Shown: positions 45,198 to 55,531 of the stretch, piece by piece
Layout of the letters: each line of letters opens with the position of its first letter
Numbering within the stretch: the stretch's first letter is position 1
From: Acanthamoeba sp. SK_2022b
Lineage: Eukaryota; Discosea; Longamoebia; Acanthamoebidae
Assembly: GCA_027943245.1 (NCBI GenBank)
Contig: JANDJZ010000075.1
Span: 62,001-126,000, forward strand
DNA: 64,000 bases
Direction of reading: 5' to 3'
Notes under the pieces: model-generated
Told to the model about the DNA's origin: nothing
Seen by the model: only the letters and a program-made list of their open reading frames with translations
Database searches by the model: none
Position numbers and translations under genes: made by a program

Positions 45198-47417
45198 TCA
45201 CTGACTTGAAGAAGAGGAAGCAGGAGCAAATGAGCCAAAGTCAGAGTTGGCATGCACAAGCATAAGGGTGGAGGTGGTGGTAGGAGACATAGAGCAGCGC
45301 CTCTGAGAGACCACCCACCCTGCTGTAGAGAATGCACGCTCTGATGCAACAGAGGTTGCAAGAAGAGTGAAGAAGTGGCGAGCAGCAGAGGCAAGAAGGG
45401 GGTACTGGTGCTGATGAAGTCTCTCAGATCAGAGGGGTGCGTAGGATATGCTGTGCTTGGGTTGCTCCTGCATGCCCATCTGCATGGATGCCCTCATAAG
45501 CTGCCAGCTCCTGGTCTAGGGTGGAGAGTGTTGTGGCTGCAGGCAGTCCAGAAGGACCAAACAGCTCAGCATAGCTGTCACACTCAGGTGTGGCAACACT
45601 GTCTGACAGAACAGCATTGCCACCACCTACATAAAACCAATCAGATAAAAGGAGTAAGTCAAAATATAGATACAAGAAACAACAGGCAGCATTACCTGAG
45701 TATGCACACACAGTGGCAATGGCCTCACCCTTGGCCTGGGCACGAAGTACTGGATCCTTGATGAAGGAGAAGCTCTTGAACTGTGGATGAAGAAATGAAG
45801 CAGCAGAGTAGAGCAGTCGAGTCTGCCTGGAGATGGTGCTCCAGCGGAAGATGGTGTGGGCATGAAGAAGATGCTGGAGGTTGCTGATGGGGGAGAGTGG
45901 GGGCTGAAGTAGATCTGCTGCACTGGTTCTGTGCATCAGTTCGTTGACTGCTGTGATGTTGATGGATGGAGCAAGGTTGTCCAGGTCGAAATTGGTTGGT
46001 GGAGCAGGTGCAGGAGGAGGAAGAGCCAGGTCGGTGTTGCTGAGACGATTGAAGATTGGCCACATGAAGGCTGCAGTAGGATCGGTCTCTGAAGAGAGGA
46101 CAGTAGTTGCGCTGGCAAAGACCTGGAGGCAAGCACATACCTCCTTGAGCTCCTGCCACTCACTGGAAGACAGTTGAAGCCCTTGATGCTTGGGGAACTT
46201 GATGAAGTAGAGGGAGATGGGTGGATGGAGCTCCACCACTCTCTGGGCCATGTTGAATGAGGCACTCCACCTGGTGGGACAGTCTGCAATCACCTTGAGG
46301 TCCTTGAACTTGTGCTCCACAATGATTGCTTGTAGCTCCCGAGATGCCTTCGCAGATCCCTGTCTCCAAAGCAGTTAGAATCAGTTCAATAAGCTAAAAA
46401 TGAAGGCAAAACAAACCTGGAAGTGCTTGGCTATCTTCTTGACCTTGAGAAGGAGGCTCCTGATGTGCTCCTCACTCTTCAGTGCCTTGCAGACAATCAG
46501 ATCAATCATGTGTGTAGCACAGTGGGCCCAAGGATAGTGAAGACGCCTCTCAACAGTGGCCCTGATGTTGGCTGCACCATCTGTTGTAAATAGGCCTATC
46601 TGCTGGCGCTGAACCCCCCAATCCTTCCATTTGACATGTAAGTGCAATGGATATAGACACATAAGAATGATAAACATACCCTGAGGATGGAGTGGATGCG
46701 CCCTGCAAGGTAGTCAGCAGTTTCTGACTCCTTTGAATGGGAGAAGCCAAGCATGAAGCGTCTCCACCTCCAATCATCAGTGATAGCATGTGCTATCACA
46801 ACAATGAAGTGCTGGCGAGATTTGGCTAACCAGCCATCACTAAACCAGAGTTAGAAACACATGATCATCAATAAAGATGAAGAAAAGTACCTGTTTACAC
46901 TGAGGGTCTTGTATGATGACAGTTCAGCATGGAGAGGAGCTTCTAGCTTCTCACACATCACCTTGAGTGTGTTCTCTAGAGTCTGCCGGCAAGGTGCAGC
47001 AAAGCCCATGTAGTTGGAGAACTCACGGAAGGTGGTGGAGTCCACTATGTGGAAAGCTAGTGCATTCTGGACCTAGTTGGAACAGTGAACAGCAATACTT
47101 AGATCATTCATTCACTCACTCATTTATTTATCTGTCATTACTCTCTTACATACCACAACTTTGGCCCAGAGCTCCCTTGCATGAGCTTGATCAATAACCT
47201 TGGGCTCATTGAAGTTGAGGTTGTGCTGCCTCTCAAGATGGGCCTTGAAGGTGGAGTTCCCAGATTTCTTTGCAAAGAGAAAAGAACATATCTTGCACAT
47301 ACCCCTTCCCTCTTTTGTCTCTTCAATATGCTCCCAAACTGGGCTTGTCCTTGTCCGCCCTCCCTCCTTCTTCCTCTTCTTCTCGCTGCGAGCTGTCTCC
47401 TCCTCAACAATCTCCAT
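45198..47417 (-). pseudogene. hAT transposase, frame broken near the C-terminus
   Basis: Begins at ATG 47417 (MEIVEEETARSEKKRKKEGG). A BED zinc finger follows (TSPVWEHIEE, MCKICSFLFAKK, FKAHLERQHN). Catalytic-core blocks: SRQHFIVVIAHAITDDWRW, IGLFTTDGAANIRATVE, AHCATHMIDLIVCKALK, DCPTRWSASFNMAQRVVELH. The C-terminal dimerisation domain reads YPLLASAARHFFTLL and TSVASERAFSTAGWVVSQRR, ending at TGA 45198-45200, but is in a different frame from the preceding exon. That exon runs into a stop (HILRTPLI then TGA, about 45425), and the frame shift (net two bases lost or one gained) lies close to it. Several introns are inferred between 45600 and 47125. The break makes an active transposase unlikely unless a small unseen intron removes it. 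Confidence 0.8.
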
Positions 47418-47537
47418 CTTCCTCTTACGCTCACCGAGCAAAGCAAGTAACGATTTTTTTTTCCTTTATTTGGCGGAGATTCTTGCCATTCCAGCCAAAC
47501 CGGTTCGAACCGGTTAACCGGAAAAACCGAACCAGTT

Positions 47538-48072: not shown

Positions 48073-49692
48073 TCACTCGACAGAGCCTTGAGACTCGTCC
48101 AGAAGCGGTGCGGGACCTCCGCTGGTGTCCAACGAGTCTGAAGAGGAAACCTGGTCGGGCAGGGCGTCGAGTTCTTGATCGTCGACTTCAACCTCGGCCG
48201 ACTCCTCGCCCTTCAAACTATCAATGACGTGGGTCGGCGGGGCCGAGATGGAAGGAGCATGGGAGAGTCGGAGAAGGCGCGTCTCAGGCGTGAAGAGGCA
48301 CGTGACGAAGAGCCCCACGACAGCGACCATGCCGCAGAGGTTGAGGACAACAGCTACACCCGACGCCGAGAGGATGTACTTGAAGGTGTAGGTGCCGATT
48401 ATGGCGCCTAGCTTGCCCGCGGCCGCGGAGATGCCGTGACAGAAGGCGCGGACTTCGGTCGGGTAGAGCTCGCTCGGGATGACGAAGGTGGTCATCTTCG
48501 GCCCGAAGCTAGCGAAGAAATACGTGGCGCCGTACATGATGAGAAAGAGCGAGGTGATGTCGGAGATGTCGTCGTAGAAGGTCGAGATGATGACATAGAG
48601 GAGCGCCATCATCAAGAAGCCCTGGAGCTGCATGTAGCGGCGGCCGATGCGGTCGATCAGGAGGACAGCCACCACGTAGCCGGGTAGAGCAATGGCGGAA
48701 ATGATGAGCGAGAGCTCGGCCAGGTTCTGCAGCTGGTCGCGCGCGGTGTCGCCATCGGCCATGCCCATGGCGTCGAGCAGGGTCGGCGTGAAGAGCGTGT
48801 TGCCGTAGAAGAGCGCATCGAAGAGCATCCACGTCAGCGTCGTGCCGATGAGCTCTCTCCAGTACCGCTTGAGCACGGTCCACCGCCACTTGAGGCGAGT
48901 CCATAGCGACAATGAGTGGAGCCGCTCTCTATCTCTCGCTGCCTTGAACTGACCGGTCTCGGCCATCATCAAGCGGAAGGGCAGAGTCAGGAGTCCGGGT
49001 ACTGCGCCCAGTCCTAGACACAAGCGCCACACCAGATCGAGGTCCGAAGACCACACTAGCAGCAGGAGAGCTACAAGGGGCACCATGAGCGCTCCCACGC
49101 CCTGCATGGCGAACGTAAAGGCCACGGCACGCCCGCGCTTTTGGCGGGCATCCTCCGCGTTCTCCGAGGCAATGCTCGCCGCCAAAGGATACTCGCCGCC
49201 CACTCCGAACCCCACCACCAACCGGAACAGAGCAAGAAGGTAATAGACCGCGTCTCGGTGGCCCACGGCACTGCTGGCGATCGCGCCCAAGGTAAATACT
49301 GCTATCGTGAGGCCGAACCCTACCCGGCGGCCAACCATGTCGGCGACAAAGCCAAACAGCAGCTGGCCGAGCATCGCCCCCAGAAGGGCGGCCGTCGACA
49401 CCAGCGACGAGTCCGTGTCAGTCTGCGGGTACACCTTGGCCATGATAGGAACCACCATCGAGGTCACCTGAAGCAGGTAGGCGTCGGCTCCAAAGGCTGT
49501 GCCGGTGAGCGCGATTCTGCCAGCTGACTTGGCCCCCCTCCAAGCTCTCTGGCGGCGAGTCTCGATCCCTTCTGCCACAGATGTCCGCTGGGTCGAAGGT
49601 GAGTCATCCTTAGATGTCGAAGTTGCAAACTTTTCCTCGTTCAATGGCTCTGGGCTGGAGGAGCGCGCCAGGGGCCATGTACGCTCGGCCAT
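48073..49692 (-). CDS. PHT1/PHO84-type phosphate:H+ symporter (MFS), intronless
   Basis: 539 residues in a single exon, major facilitator fold. Motifs are those of the phosphate symporter subfamily: GTAFGADAYLLQVTSMVVP in helix 1, LFGFVADMVGRRVG in loop 2-3, GFGVGGEYPLAASIASENA, RGRAVAFTFAMQGVGAL, then TTLTWMLFDALFYGNTLF in helix 7 and GPKMTTFVIPSELYPTEVRA followed by FCHGISAAAGKLGAIIGTY. These last blocks are characteristic of plant PHT1 and yeast PHO84. The central loop is short and basic. The C-terminal tail is acidic and Ser-rich, a possible regulatory region. It is divergent from the PstS-receptor kinase with 222 bases between the two ATGs. No introns, unlike most neighbours. Confidence 0.88.
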   Translation of the reverse strand: MAERTWPLARSSSPEPLNEEKFATSTSKDDSPSTQRTSVAEGIETRRQRAWRGAKSAGRIALTGTAFGADAYLLQVTSMVVPIMAKVYPQTDTDSSLVSTAALLGAMLGQLLFGFVADMVGRRVGFGLTIAVFTLGAIASSAVGHRDAVYYLLALFRLVVGFGVGGEYPLAASIASENAEDARQKRGRAVAFTFAMQGVGALMVPLVALLLLVWSSDLDLVWRLCLGLGAVPGLLTLPFRLMMAETGQFKAARDRERLHSLSLWTRLKWRWTVLKRYWRELIGTTLTWMLFDALFYGNTLFTPTLLDAMGMADGDTARDQLQNLAELSLIISAIALPGYVVAVLLIDRIGRRYMQLQGFLMMALLYVIISTFYDDISDITSLFLIMYGATYFFASFGPKMTTFVIPSELYPTEVRAFCHGISAAAGKLGAIIGTYTFKYILSASGVAVVLNLCGMVAVVGLFVTCLFTPETRLLRLSHAPSISAPPTHVIDSLKGEESAEVEVDDQELDALPDQVSSSDSLDTSGGPAPLLDESQGSVE

Positions 49693-49914
49693 GGTACCGC
49701 GTATGAGTCAACTACCCGGTGGGCCCGATTTGCCTCCGACAATTTCGATAAACGCAAGAGAATCGCCCAATCGCATGGAGATCGGCCTGCGCAACACCGG
49801 AGTTAATCGGGCATAGGCCAATTACTTCACATCTAGTCACAACACCCCAACCCGCGCAAGCCCTCGGCACACGCGAGACTGACAGTGCCAACGACAGGTT
49901 CTCAACCAGCCACC
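49693..49914. promoter_or_regulatory. Shared divergent promoter of phosphate transporter and PstS-receptor kinase
   Basis: The only sequence between two divergent start codons. I looked for known phosphate-response sites: no CACGTG/CACGTT PHO box and no GNATATNC P1BS site was seen. No TATA box is obvious. The arrangement suggests co-regulation but the controlling site is unknown. Confidence 0.5.
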
Positions 49915-52900
49915 ATGGTGAGGGTGCATGCTACCGTTCTCTGCCAGCTGTTGATGGTCTGGCTTGTACTCTACAACTGTACCCCACCCCTTCGTCGTCG
50001 GCGCATTTTCAAATTAAGGCTTGGGGTTCGTTAACTCACACATAAGGCTACTTCTCTCATGTTATAGGCATAGCTCTCGCTGCGGGAGAGGACCCCTATG
50101 GCACCGTCACCTTTTCCGGACAAGGCAGCTCCCAGTCGGCGTCAGCCATCAGCTCCCTTGCTGCATCCTACCGGTTTGTCACAACCGGCGTGCGCAACAC
50201 CTTCGCCACTGCTACAGACCAAGCCGCTTTGGCAGCTGTGGCCAACAGGAGCGTCAATTATGCCATCGTTGATGACCTCCAGGCGTCAGCCCTACCTACA
50301 ACGACGCTGGCCATTCCCCTGCTTGGCGCGGCATTGGTGGTGCCCTACAACCTAAACACGTTCGGGCCGGCCAACGTGTCCTCTACTCAGCTGCTCGTCA
50401 GCCTCGATCTGGCAACCGTCGCGCTCATTTTTGCGGGCAATATCACACAGTGGTACGGAGAAGCACCTGAGTTTCCTGCTATGACCCGGGCCCTATATCG
50501 CGGAGATTTAGGCTTACATCCAGGACACGAATATGTCCCTTCGGTCTTCAACAACAGGAACGATACGCGGATCGTAGCGCTCAACCCAAGCAGCTCCTAC
50601 AATTATTCCTCTCAGCTGCAGGCCACCAGCCTTGCCATCACCGTTGTCGTGCGAGCTGACGCCACGCCTATCACGAGAGCCTTCACGCGCGCTCTTGCCA
50701 ACGCCTCGAGCCTCTTCGACGAGGTGGTGGGCGTGTCCGACTTGCCGACTTCATGGCCGGCCACCTTCGTCAAGGTCTCTGGGGCTAGTGGCGTGATGTC
50801 CGCCGTTCAGGACACCGCAGGAGCGATCGGGTTTGTCGATCTGCCGTCATGGACATCATCATACGGCGTCCCCTATACCTCACTCCGCAACAAGGTGGGC
50901 ATAAACCCCCCCCCCTCTCTGATAGCTGTCCCATTACAACCGGTGGCACATTAACCTATCTCAACCAACAGAATAAGCAGATCGTGTTGCCGAGTATTAC
51001 AAACGTCCAGCGACTCATGGCGGATAACGTGAAGCGCTTCAACCTTAGCAACTCAATGGTGGCCAACCTCACGGATGGGTCCAGCGCGGCCACCTGGTGC
51101 GACATTGGCTTTGGTCAATTGTGTGACCAGGCTCTTTCTTACTTGTCAAACGAGTGCAGGCCGCTCGGCTGGATGAACTACCTCGTCACCCCCACCACCA
51201 ATTTCTCTTCGTGCGACGAGCCAAAGGAGCTGTTCAGGTGGTACGGTTGGATCGAGTTCAACTCGCAGGTAGCATCCACCATGGCGGGATCAAACTACGC
51301 GACGCTTCACTACAGCGTGCTCAAGCGAGCCACTGACGCTCTCGGCACCATCACATGCGACAATGAGCGCAGCATGCCCACCAGTACTGAACTCCTGGCG
51401 CTCCGCATTGACCACTTGAGGTCTAATCGACACGTTGAATTATGCTAGGCGTCCTGTCCGGTTCTGGTGCGACACTACCCCTGATCACCTACCAGGCGTG
51501 GATCCAGGAATACAACACCAACGTGAACTCGAGCGTTGCCATAAGCTACACGGGCACCGGTTCCAGCACGGGTATCGCAGACATCCTAGCCTACAACACC
51601 GATCTTGGCGCTTCCGACGCTGCTCTCACGGTAGGCTGCCCTCTTCTCCCTCTTTTTCCACTGTTTCTCGCTCTGATCGATCATGAACATATCCAGAACA
51701 CCAACTACGCGGCGAGCGGCGGAAGCGATTTGCAAATGCTGCCGGCCATCGCGGCAGCAGTGGTGATGGTTTACAACGTGCCGGACATCGGCTCCACGCC
51801 TCTAATGTTCACTCGTGAATTGTTGCCCCTGATCTACTTGGGCGTGGTGAGCATGTGGAACGACCCGCTCATCGTCGCGGCCAATCCCAGCCTGACTCTG
51901 CCTAACGCGTCTATCATCATCGTGGGCCGGTCGGACGGATCGGGCACGACGTCAGTATTCACGCAGGCGCTTTCATTCTTCAGCTCGGCATTCAACCAGT
52001 CGGTGGGCAACGTGCAGCTGGTAAACTGGGGTCCGGTGAACATCTCCGGCATGGCCGTCAACGCCAAAGGCTTCATTCCCTCTGCGCGCTACATGGTACA
52101 CCTTCTCTATGCGGCGCAATTGTGAAGGCCATCACTGTCGGACAGGGAGTGAGAGCTAAGTTCATATCTTGGGCAGTTGGGAAATGGCAATGGAGAGGTA
52201 GTGAGCAGGATTAAGAGCACAGCCTATGCGCTAGGCTATGCGGTTAATGCCGATGCGATCGAGGCTGGCCTCCCCTTTGCCACCATGCGAAACAAGGTCC
52301 TATCTTCTGCGCACTACAGCGCTTCCTTGTGACACATCGAGTAACATTTATTTGTGGCCTCGCAAGAGCAGGCTGGCAACAACGTGACTGCCAACCCGCT
52401 CACCATCAACGCCGCCCTAACCGAGTTTGCCGATGCATTTACGGACCGATTCTCTGCCACGATTCAGGACGGTTCGTCGGCCAATGCCTGGCCGATGGCC
52501 ACCTACTCCTACCTCCTCGTCCACACCAGGCATGTGCCCAATCTCCGCCTCATCAAGACCACTACCTGGTGCACCACATTGGGAGACACTTGCCGTTCTG
52601 ATCCGAACTTGCGGTATGCCCGTCAGGACTATGAGCGAGTGTGACAAGGCGACGTCGTTGCTCGATTACATCATTTGGACGCAGACCAACAGCAAACCCA
52701 TAGCCATCGCTGAAGCCCTCGGCTATACGGTTCGCCTCCTTCTCCCATTGCCTCGATCCCACAAAGCACGTCCTTGAGCGTGTGTTGGATGGACAAACAG
52801 GTTACGCCAATCGCTGTCAGGCGGCGGTTCCTTGTCACACTGTCAAGTGTCACCTGCAACGATCAGAAGGTGTTCAGCTTGGTGCCTTGTCTCCAGGATG

Positions 52901-55531
52901 GCATCATATGCAGCGATCGAGGAACGTGTCTCGACGGCCAATGCACATGTCAGAGCGGCTACACCGGTATGGCTCCGTCCTCGCCTCACATGGGACATTC
53001 TCTCATGCAAGTCACAGGTGACCAGTGTGAAAACGTGGTCGGCGCCTCCAGCTCGGACGACACGTTGGCCATCGCACTAGGAGTTGCACTTCCGGTCGGT
53101 TTCCTCTTCTTGTGCTGCCTCGCCGCCGTCTTCGTCATCTTCGGCATCCTCTACTGGCGCAAGGGACGCAAGCAGGAGCTCCTCTTGGCCGCCGAGTGGT
53201 CCGATTACTCCGAAAATAGCTTGGAGATGGACGACTTCTCTTCGTACGAGCTTTCTCCCCACCCTTGCCAGCAGCCCCACCCATGGAAGCGCCTCACCAC
53301 CCAAGTGTTCTCTCGCACAATCGCCCATCAGTCGTAGCACGAACTCCACAAGGAGCGGTGGGGGAGGAGGCGCTCTGGGCATGTCACGCGACCTCTCCTT
53401 TACCGACCTCGAGAAACTCAACTTGTCCTACGAGCCCAAGGCACTCACCTTCGGCCTCGGCCCTAGCGACAAATGCCCCGTGGACGAGGAGATGCACGAC
53501 GAGATCGTTATCACCAATCACGGCAATTCCACACGCAAGTTCGTCTTCTTCGTGCCGGCTGAGGACGAGACGCTCCGCTGTCGCCTGCATCCTGGTGCTG
53601 GCGTTGTCAAGCCGGTGAGTACATCAGTTCCCTTACCAACTTCCAACTTAACTTAAGATGGTGATGATGATGATGATGATGAGGTGATGCTGATGCTGAT
53701 GCCAAGCCTGCCGGTGGGGTTGGCAGGGCAAGAGTGTGACCATCAGCATCTCTTGCACGTTGCTCATGACCACCACCATCGAGCGTAAGATTAAGTTCGA
53801 AGTCGAGGGCATGGGCAAGCACCTCCTTTCTATCAAGCTCATCGGAGAGCTGTCCACCAAGCTTGATCCAAACGACATCGTCACTGTGCCGCCGCCCATA
53901 GGTTCGCTACTGCTCCTCGCGCATATTCCCATAACATACGGCAAGATTGCGTCTCATAAGGATTGACGCACCTTAGGAGTCGGGTCTTTCGGTTCTGTGT
54001 ACAAGGCCGATTATCGTGGACAGGAGGTGGCCGCCAAGGTCCTGAACTCGCAGCTGCACGCAAAGCAGATCGAAGAGTTCAAGAGGTGCAGAGGCCTGAC
54101 TCTCCCTTCCCTCCTCTTCTCATCTCACAATGTGTCGCTGGTCAACTTCAGAGAGGTGAACATTTTGAACCGTCTACGTTGCCCGTACGTGCTAAACTTC
54201 ATAGGAGCGTCGCACGTGGAAGGCAAACGCTGCATCGTGACCGAGCTGTGCAAGTCTGGTTCGGTGGCCGATCTGGTGTTTAGCGACAAGAGTTTCAACT
54301 ACCTGCTCATGCTCAAGGTGGCACTCGACATGTCCAAGGCCGTCGCCTTCCTTCACGCGTACTCCCACCTACCTTCCAGCTCTCCCGTTATGCCAAATCC
54401 GCACCGCTGGGTCACTTGAGAGCTTATGTGGAGGACGGTGGTGATGCAATCCAAACGACCATAGGAATGGAGTGCTGCACAGGGACATTAAGCCCGAGAA
54501 CTTTTTGGTTGCGTCGCTCTCCACCAAGGCTGCGGTCTCGTGCAAGATCGCCGACTTTGGAACTTCGCGGTAATGTTGCCTGTATTGACGTCCGCTATAC
54601 GTGGCTCGCTCACTGACTCGTCTTGTTGCGCGTGCGCCTTCAGTTCGATCACGACAGTGCGGGAGCTGCTCAACCACACGGCGGCTCTCGGCACGCCCCT
54701 GTACATGGCTCCCGAGGTCCTCCCTTCTCGCTTTTCTCCGCCAACTGTTTCTCGTGTCGCCCTCCGTGCCTCACACCCACGGCGCTGCAGGTACTGGAGC
54801 ACCAGCCGTACTCGGCCAAGATCGACGTGTACTCGTTTGGAGTGGTGCTTTGGGTACTCTACACGAGAAGAGAGCCGTACACCGAGCTCAAGCGCCAATG
54901 GGGTACTTTTTCTGTTCCCTCCCCGAATCTGGTCTCTCACTGACGGGCACACACCCACACGCCTTCTTTTTTCCACGCAGATGTACCCCGCTACGTAATC
55001 AAGGGAAAGAGGCCTTCCATTCCTCATCACTGCCCCAAGGTCTTTACATTCATGAATCGTGAACCGGTCATTTTGTTCTCTCGCGATCGTTCTCACTTGA
55101 GCCTGGGACGGCGTGCAGAACTTTGCCGACCTGATCGCCCAGTGCTGGGCGCACAGCCCCGACAACAGGCCGGATATGGCTGAAGTGGCCAAGGTGCTCG
55201 AGAACCTGTTCGAGGAGGAACGCGGTGTCCCGAAGAGATTGCGGCAGGGAGACGTTGATGATGCTCGTGACCGGGTATCTTTCCTCCTAGCCCCTCCAGT
55301 CTTCACAGCACAGGCTCATGCACGACAAACTCCAACAACGTGCGACAGGACACGTCACCAGACGCGGAGGGCAATCGGGAGCGCAAGGGAATGCGGACCT
55401 GGGAGGGCGGGAAGAACCTGCTCATGGTCGGCCAGGACAGCGACGGATCAGATGCCTCCTCAGACTCAGAAGACCAACCAAAGGGTAGCAAACGCAAGAG
55501 CAGGCGTGTCAACCGATCTGCACACACCTAA
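49915..55531 (+). CDS. Receptor kinase with two tandem PstS-like phosphate-binding ectodomains
   Basis: Single-pass receptor kinase. Exon 1 ([20 protein letters not shown]) is a signal peptide. Module 1 (about 50070-51390) is a divergent PstS fold: [39 protein letters not shown] and [18 protein letters not shown]. Module 2 (about 51445-52300) is plain Pst[46 protein letters not shown], the phosphate-site [15 protein letters not shown] and [17 protein letters not shown]. An EGF-like unit ([20 protein letters not shown]) precedes one transmembrane helix ([20 protein letters not shown]). Inside are a major-sperm-protein-like beta domain (53420-53900) and a TKL-type kinase with [32 protein letters not shown] and GTPLYMAPE, so catalytically complete. 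The tail is Ser/Asp-rich then basic. About 18 exons; several ends between 51380 and 52760 are uncertain. Confidence 0.82.

Follow-up and report, generated by a model that had tools for sequence, protein, structure and literature searches.

A receptor kinase of Acanthamoeba with a PstS-type ectodomain: a candidate cell-surface phosphate receptor encoded beside a transporter of the phosphate:H+ symporter family

Gene content of the locus

The window analysed here, a stretch of 64,000 nucleotides from Acanthamoeba sp. SK_2022b (NCBI GenBank assembly GCA_027943245.1, contig JANDJZ010000075.1, positions 62,001 to 126,000 of the forward strand), carries two divergent genes that are the subject of this work: a receptor kinase whose ectodomain is related to the bacterial phosphate-binding protein PstS, and a transporter of the major facilitator superfamily (MFS) that belongs to the PHS (phosphate:H+ symporter) family (Table 1). 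An earlier note on this DNA had described them as a head-to-head pair 222 bases apart, and both the coordinates and the orientation that it gave are correct.

The exons of the receptor kinase gene were assembled by hand from splice signals, from an ATG at 49915 to a stop at 55531. The introns (18 GT-AG and one GC-AG, the latter at 52530) measure 47-112 nt and the 1381-aa product has no frame break. A frameshift or pseudogene was considered because of stops in the raw open reading frames (ORFs) at 52644 and 53335, and was rejected since these are removed by the GC-AG intron and by an 88-nt GT-AG intron; the alignment with bacterial PstS crosses the junction of the GC-AG intron without a gap. 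Exon 10 (53018-53243) encodes, in a single open frame, the last cysteine of the EGF domain (DQCEN), the transmembrane (TM) helix and the juxtamembrane segment. Therefore, ectodomain and kinase are joined in one gene in the genome, which rules out separate genes at this level; the PstS modules and the kinase thus belong together in the genome, as the earlier note had supposed.

Pfam matches the 1381-aa protein to PBP_like_2 (3.1e-28) in two stretches. Hydropathy gives a peak for the signal peptide, another for the TM helix and a lesser one in module 1 (residues 120-149), which we take as the core of the PstS-like fold. With a signal peptide, an ectodomain, a TM helix and a kinase with its catalytic motifs, the protein has all the parts of a receptor kinase; its kinase is classed as TKL from the PF07714 match and from its kin kinases, not from a kinome tree. 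Hence, the EGF domain, the single TM helix and the intact kinase that had been proposed agree with Pfam, hydropathy and motifs, while the proposed MSP-like domain is present but weak, its match falling under the cut-off. Pfam, at E <= 0.01, gives no cyclase domain and only one kinase domain, so that the protein is not of the kinase-cyclase-kinase type, in which a cyclase is flanked by two kinases.

Table 1. Features of the receptor kinase and transporter genes (positions in the window) and of the related receptor on contig C903
Feature	Position	Strand	Content or evidence
MFS transporter, PHS (phosphate:H+ symporter) family	48073..49692	-	single exon, 539 aa
Head-to-head intergenic region	49693..49914		222 bases between start codons
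Receptor kinase gene	49915..55531	+	20 exons, 1381 aa; hand-built gene model
Signal peptide, putative (exon 1 and start of exon 2)	49915..50081	+	hydrophobic N-terminus (hydropathy)
PstS-like module 1, degenerate pocket (exons 2-3)	50088..51383	+	TIGR00975 70.3 bits
PstS module 2, pocket complete (exons 4-9)	51449..52860	+	TIGR00975 233.4 bits
Phosphate loop RSDGSGT of module 2	51928..51948	+	loop pattern match; aligns with RADGSGT of E. coli PstS
EGF domain (exons 9-10)	52888..53034	+	PF23106 6.7e-8, residues 792-816; PF07974 residues 785-814
Transmembrane helix	53071..53160	+	hydropathy and exon translation; shares an exon with the last EGF cysteine
MSP/PapD-like Ig domain (exons 11-12)	53390..53876	+	PF22544 23.0 bits, cut-off 25.5 (sub-threshold)
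Protein kinase domain, TKL-like (exons 12-19)	53895..55196	+	PF07714 2.9e-53; motifs intact
C903 receptor	C903:7400-17300	-	PstS-PstS-EGF-TM-kinase-cyclase-kinase; module 2 with 8/8 contact residues

A complete phosphate pocket in module 2

Module 2 passes the cut-off of the NCBI PstS equivalog TIGR00975 (205 bits) with an E-value of 3.3e-69. A PDB sequence search with the whole ectodomain retrieved PstS 2z22 (1.5e-35) and E. coli PstS 1ixh (8.8e-33), both over module 2, so that the comparison with PstS profiles and structures suggested in the earlier note came out in favour of its reading. Of 8000 candidates scored with module 2 as a protein query, 541 matched at E <= 1e-3, and the named proteins among the 120 of these matches listed are phosphate-binding proteins or PstS. 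The best bacterial PstS among the matches listed is 38% identical to module 2 over 345 positions, with 99% coverage. The largest gap in the alignment of module 2 with PstS comprises 12 residues and coincides with the junction of exons 5 and 6; a paralogue on contig C903 of the assembly also has extra residues there. A further protein search, with the ectodomain as query, returned one bacterial PstA-PstS fusion.

We take T10, S38, D56, R135, D137, S139, G140 and T141 as the residues by which E. coli PstS contacts phosphate, and positions were counted in E. coli numbering on the alignment of 1ixh to the ectodomain. Module 2 keeps all eight contact residues, with Thr, Ser, Asp, Arg, Asp, Ser, Gly and Thr at these positions. 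The last seven (S38 to T141) are identical in module 2 and in each of the 120 bacterial PstS listed out of the 541 matches, and at position T10 the Thr of module 2 is found in 54 of these proteins, the others having Ser (65) or Asp (1).

The two tandem PstS-like modules of the earlier note are both present, but a full PstS is seen in module 2 alone. Module 1, which falls far below the 205 bits of TIGR00975, has Ser, Asp, Asp, Arg, Asp, Thr, Pro and Ile at the same eight positions: the equivalents of Asp56, Arg135 and Asp137 are kept, whereas S38 and the Ser-Gly-Thr loop (S139, G140, T141) are changed. From the conservation of its pocket, module 2 is predicted to bind inorganic phosphate (Pi), and we consider this likely.

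PstS ectodomains across the amoeba genome

The 44.9-Mb assembly (1129 contigs) was searched for further PstS domains. PF12849 gave 47 matches and the module 2 query at least 130, a lower bound since 118 of the 288 candidates were scored. After clustering, and with bacterial-looking contigs left out, about 85 PstS-like loci are counted in the amoeba, bacterial origin having been checked for part of the contigs behind this number. Standalone matches on contigs C166, C255, C315, C736 and C775 were considered as further intact PstS of the amoeba and were rejected. These five contigs are left out of the count because PstS sits there among bacterial operon genes (phn, pst and phoB-phoR, recognized by eye among the ORFs); GC content is 0.60-0.73 in four of these regions, and we take the five as bacteria co-assembled with the amoeba genome.

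A guanylate-cyclase match lies within 8 kb of 52 of the 85 PstS loci; conversely, a PstS match lies within 8 kb of 56 of the 68 guanylate-cyclase loci. Furthermore, two separate kinase matches follow the PstS modules in 11 of the 15 amoebal regions fetched. In the passages of Clarke et al. 2013 (PMC4053784) that deal with these receptors, A. castellanii is described as having 67 nucleotidyl cyclases that combine a receptor domain outside the cell with one TM helix, the cyclase being flanked by two serine/threonine kinase domains, a type also present in giant viruses; these passages give the receptor domain no name. The PstS-ectodomain receptors found here are evidently these receptor cyclases. 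Since 56 of the 68 cyclase loci are near PstS and 11 of the 15 regions have two kinases, our analysis suggests that the receptor cyclases of the Acanthamoeba type described in 2013 carry a tandem PstS as their extracellular domain. The earlier note gave it as known that PstS does not serve as a kinase ectodomain in eukaryotes; this fails for the present organism, with about 85 PstS loci of which 52 are near a cyclase. In the tree, module 1 sequences sit on long branches and those of amoeba module 2 form a weakly supported clade (84/45), so that a single origin is not established. In viral contigs, neither module 2 nor an alignment of six ectodomains retrieved a relative that could be confirmed.

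Retention of the pocket was examined by several routes. Searched as a DNA pattern, the phosphate loop gave 41 matches in the genome and its reversed control 48, so that most of these matches are due to chance. Five of the 41 lie inside PstS modules: three on bacterial contigs, one in the receptor kinase gene and one on C903. A further match, on C686, is about 2 kb from a PstS match and within the kinase match of that locus. Of the 15 amoebal regions, 14 align with module 2 by tblastn over at least four of the key positions, and C903 alone keeps all eight. Moreover, the loop is kept in none of the 12 modules of six paralogues with unbroken reading frames. Hence, in what was checked, the receptor kinase gene and C903 appear to be the only amoeba receptors with an intact pocket.

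The module 2 of C903 scores 223.9 bits against TIGR00975. Its cyclase matches PF00211 with 24.7 bits on exons joined approximately and is not among the guanylate-cyclase matches of the genome search. The module 2 sequences of C903 and of the receptor kinase pair in the tree with a support of 100/99 and are 52% identical; since the pocket is kept at this low identity, it may well be in use in both genes.

The receptor might instead sense a ligand other than phosphate, such as bacterial products, organophosphates or another oxyanion, with the pocket as an ancestral remnant. The pocket is lost in those of the about 85 PstS loci that were read, save C903, as would be expected if the PstS scaffold had been recruited for other ligands. 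However, the eight contact residues are kept in spite of the divergence between the two genes, which argues for constraint on the pocket in both, and we consider this alternative rather unlikely. Several other observations also weigh against phosphate sensing. The residue equivalent to F11 is Leu in module 2, as opposed to Phe in 119 of the 120 bacterial PstS listed. Passing the PstS cut-off is by itself no proof of binding, because L039, a paralogue that has lost the pocket, scores 239.9 bits to TIGR00975 over its two modules together. The loop pattern misses loops split by an intron, besides having a control as high as its own count, and the retention count covers the loci read, not every one of the 85. 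Finally, receptors of the family that have lost the pocket presumably function nonetheless, so that binding of Pi would not be required for signalling in this family.

A receptor of mixed origin

The TM-MSP-kinase part of the protein has other kin than its ectodomain. From the TM helix onward, the protein is 59-74% identical to the paralogue on contig C283. In a comparison in which 90 of 652 candidates were scored, pieces of this part are 60, 72 and 75% identical to a first copy on C283 and 48-79% identical to a second copy on that contig. Pieces from C628 and C907 are mostly 61-70% identical, those of the TM/juxtamembrane segment reaching no more than 35 and 48%. Kinases elsewhere in the genome are 28-46% identical, except for one piece of 61% on C501. 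The MSP-like domain likewise has its matches in this genome on C283 (two copies), C628 and C907, at 52-70%, with a weak one on C480 (27%). No PstS match lies on C283, C628 or C907 in the genome searches with PF12849 and module 2. On C283 (3700-8700), the same kind of TM-MSP-kinase part follows an ectodomain with an animal haem peroxidase (1.1e-13) and a DOMON domain (3.5e-12). Because the ectodomain pairs with C903 while the TM-MSP-kinase part is closest to C283, whose ectodomain is of the peroxidase-DOMON kind, the receptor kinase is, judging from these kinships, a chimera of a C903-type ectodomain and a C283-type TM-MSP-kinase, and the change from one kin to the other falls between EGF and TM.

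The reading that we favour, and hold to be reasonably probable, is that of a single-pass receptor kinase of the plasma membrane, whose PstS module of bacterial ancestry would still bind Pi and would signal in the manner of a Venus flytrap to the MSP-kinase, and which would have arisen by an ectodomain swap. Module 2 would be a periplasmic-binding domain of the PstS type, descended from bacteria, and would, as the conservation of its pocket indicates, bind Pi outside the cell. As in other receptors of the Venus-flytrap kind, this module would close on phosphate, and closure may be transmitted through the EGF stalk and the TM helix to the cytoplasmic MSP-kinase, altering kinase activity. Module 1 could act as a scaffold or in dimerisation. 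The gene would have originated when the ectodomain of a phosphate-competent member of the C903 type was joined to the TM-MSP-kinase of a receptor kinase of the C283 group. The domains and their order, their union in one gene, the complete pocket and the mixed kinship of the two halves are read from the DNA; beyond these, phosphate binding is likely, signalling plausible and the uptake module weak.

A wider scenario can be put forward tentatively, as a possibility somewhat short of probable: PstS would have been taken from bacteria and become the ectodomain of a large family of amoeba receptors, two members of which would have kept the pocket as cell-surface Pi receptors, one with a kinase-cyclase-kinase output and the other, after the ectodomain swap, with an MSP-kinase and a position beside a phosphate-family transporter.

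The neighbouring transporter and the significance of the pair

In a PDB sequence search, the transporter matched OsPHT1;11 (1.2e-64) and PiPT (3.8e-57). Against TIGR00887, the phosphate:H+ symporter family, it scores 276.1 bits (E 6e-82), below the 610-bit equivalog cut-off, and the next family reaches 95.8 bits. The earlier assignment to PHT1/PHO84-type transporters is therefore borne out at the level of the PHS family. We take the pocket residues of PiPT to be D45, D149, Y150, Q177, W320, D324, Y328, N431 and K459. The transporter keeps seven of these nine, D149 being replaced by Glu and N431 by Lys; GGEYPL (against GGDYP) and GPKMTT are the corresponding departures from the PHS signature, with GPK at the Asn position. 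Three further PHS-like transporters, on C934, C334 and C48, are 35-52% identical to it and all have Asn at the N431 position. GGEYPL, with its Glu at D149, is also found in C934 and C334, the two paralogues in which this stretch is readable. Thus, four PHS loci are counted, matches at 23-31% being left out as more distant MFS proteins. From these comparisons, the transporter can be assigned to the PHS family, its substrate being uncertain.

The earlier note had proposed that the two genes form a phosphate sensing-uptake module. The sensing half of this proposal gains from a module 2 that is PstS with a complete pocket and that shares one gene with an intact kinase, whereas the pairing is not seen at paralogues. 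Among 20 other PstS regions fetched, five of them bacterial, none has a PHS match, in flanks of a few kb that are in some cases cut by contig ends. None of the other PHS loci has a PstS match beside it either: on C934 the two are 77 kb apart, and the contigs C334 and C48, which are short, carry no PstS match. These absences, together with the change of Asn to Lys in the transporter pocket, speak for a chance adjacency in a compact genome, receptor and transporter being functionally unrelated whatever the receptor senses. On the other side, hand arithmetic made after the fact, with the four PHS loci and a published count of 15,455 genes for A. castellanii, gives a chance expectation for a PHS neighbour of only 0.001 for the two receptors with an intact pocket and of 0.04 for the 85 loci. 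On balance, a chance adjacency appears fairly probable, the case for a sensing-uptake module of receptor and transporter is weak, and we doubt that the transporter is part of the phosphate-receptor system.

The head-to-head neighbour of the PHS family also raises another function for the ectodomain. Module 2 might be a tether that captures Pi and passes it to the transporter with little signalling, as PstS, an established delivery protein in bacteria, passes it to PstCAB. However, the kinase motifs are intact and the kin of the protein include a receptor kinase without PstS (C283). Moreover, we know of no MFS transporter that is supplied by a kinase-fused binding protein. Such a tether is therefore very improbable, and a signalling receptor remains the reading that we favour.

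On the other side of the transporter, a BED zinc finger (PF02892, 3.3e-6) is encoded at 47124-47465 (-) and an ORF that resembles a hAT transposase by eye, without Pfam support, at 46381-46713 (-). Both lie in a low-GC stretch and are possibly the remains of a degraded DNA transposon.

Comparison with known systems

The best-described phosphate sensors of eukaryotes are intracellular (SPX domains) or act via transporters (Pho84-type transceptors). The receptor kinase described here bears on whether a eukaryote reads external phosphate by a dedicated receptor: the fusion of a PstS with an unchanged pocket to a cell-surface kinase could permit direct sensing of the phosphate outside. The paralogues without a pocket offer ready-made controls, and C903 would combine the same pocket with a cyclase output. 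No account of PstS-ectodomain receptors in amoebae was found among the open-licence papers listed, judged by titles and the starts of abstracts, without supplements. As far as this literature goes, the PstS identity of the family ectodomain, the two members with an intact pocket and the chimera that has a kinase alone are new, while the individual domains and the receptor scaffold are of known kinds. The passages on phosphate uptake by A. castellanii in two reviews that treat its AcPHS transporters (PMC9860751, PMC13163259) make no mention of a receptor of the PstS-kinase type.

Module 2 resembles bacterial PstS (E. coli 1ixh/2abh, TIGR00975) over nearly its whole length, including the phosphate loop and the equivalents of Ser38 and Asp56. 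It differs in being fused to a eukaryotic receptor kinase, in an intron-rich gene and with a second, degenerate module in front. Periplasmic-binding-protein (PBP) folds also occur in other Venus-flytrap receptors, namely BvgS-type sensor kinases, natriuretic-peptide receptor cyclases and glutamate receptors. A PBP-fold ectodomain on a transmembrane signalling protein is common to all of these, whereas the PBP families and the ligands differ.

The MSP-kinase genes on C283 (two copies), C628 and C907 are like the receptor kinase in their TM, MSP-like and kinase parts; C283, the only one of them whose ectodomain was examined, has peroxidase and DOMON domains where the receptor kinase has PstS. 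The transporter matches OsPHT1;11 and PiPT of the PHT1/PHO84/PiPT symporters, a group that includes AcPHS in the review passages concerned (PMC9860751), and differs from them in GGEYPL, in GPK and in reaching 276 of the 610 bits. Finally, the tandem PstS-EGF-TM plan appears to be shared with the receptor cyclases described for A. castellanii (PMC4053784), and C903 reads as one of them with an intact pocket. In contrast to these cyclases, the protein of the window is a receptor kinase without a cyclase match, with one kinase and an MSP-like domain.

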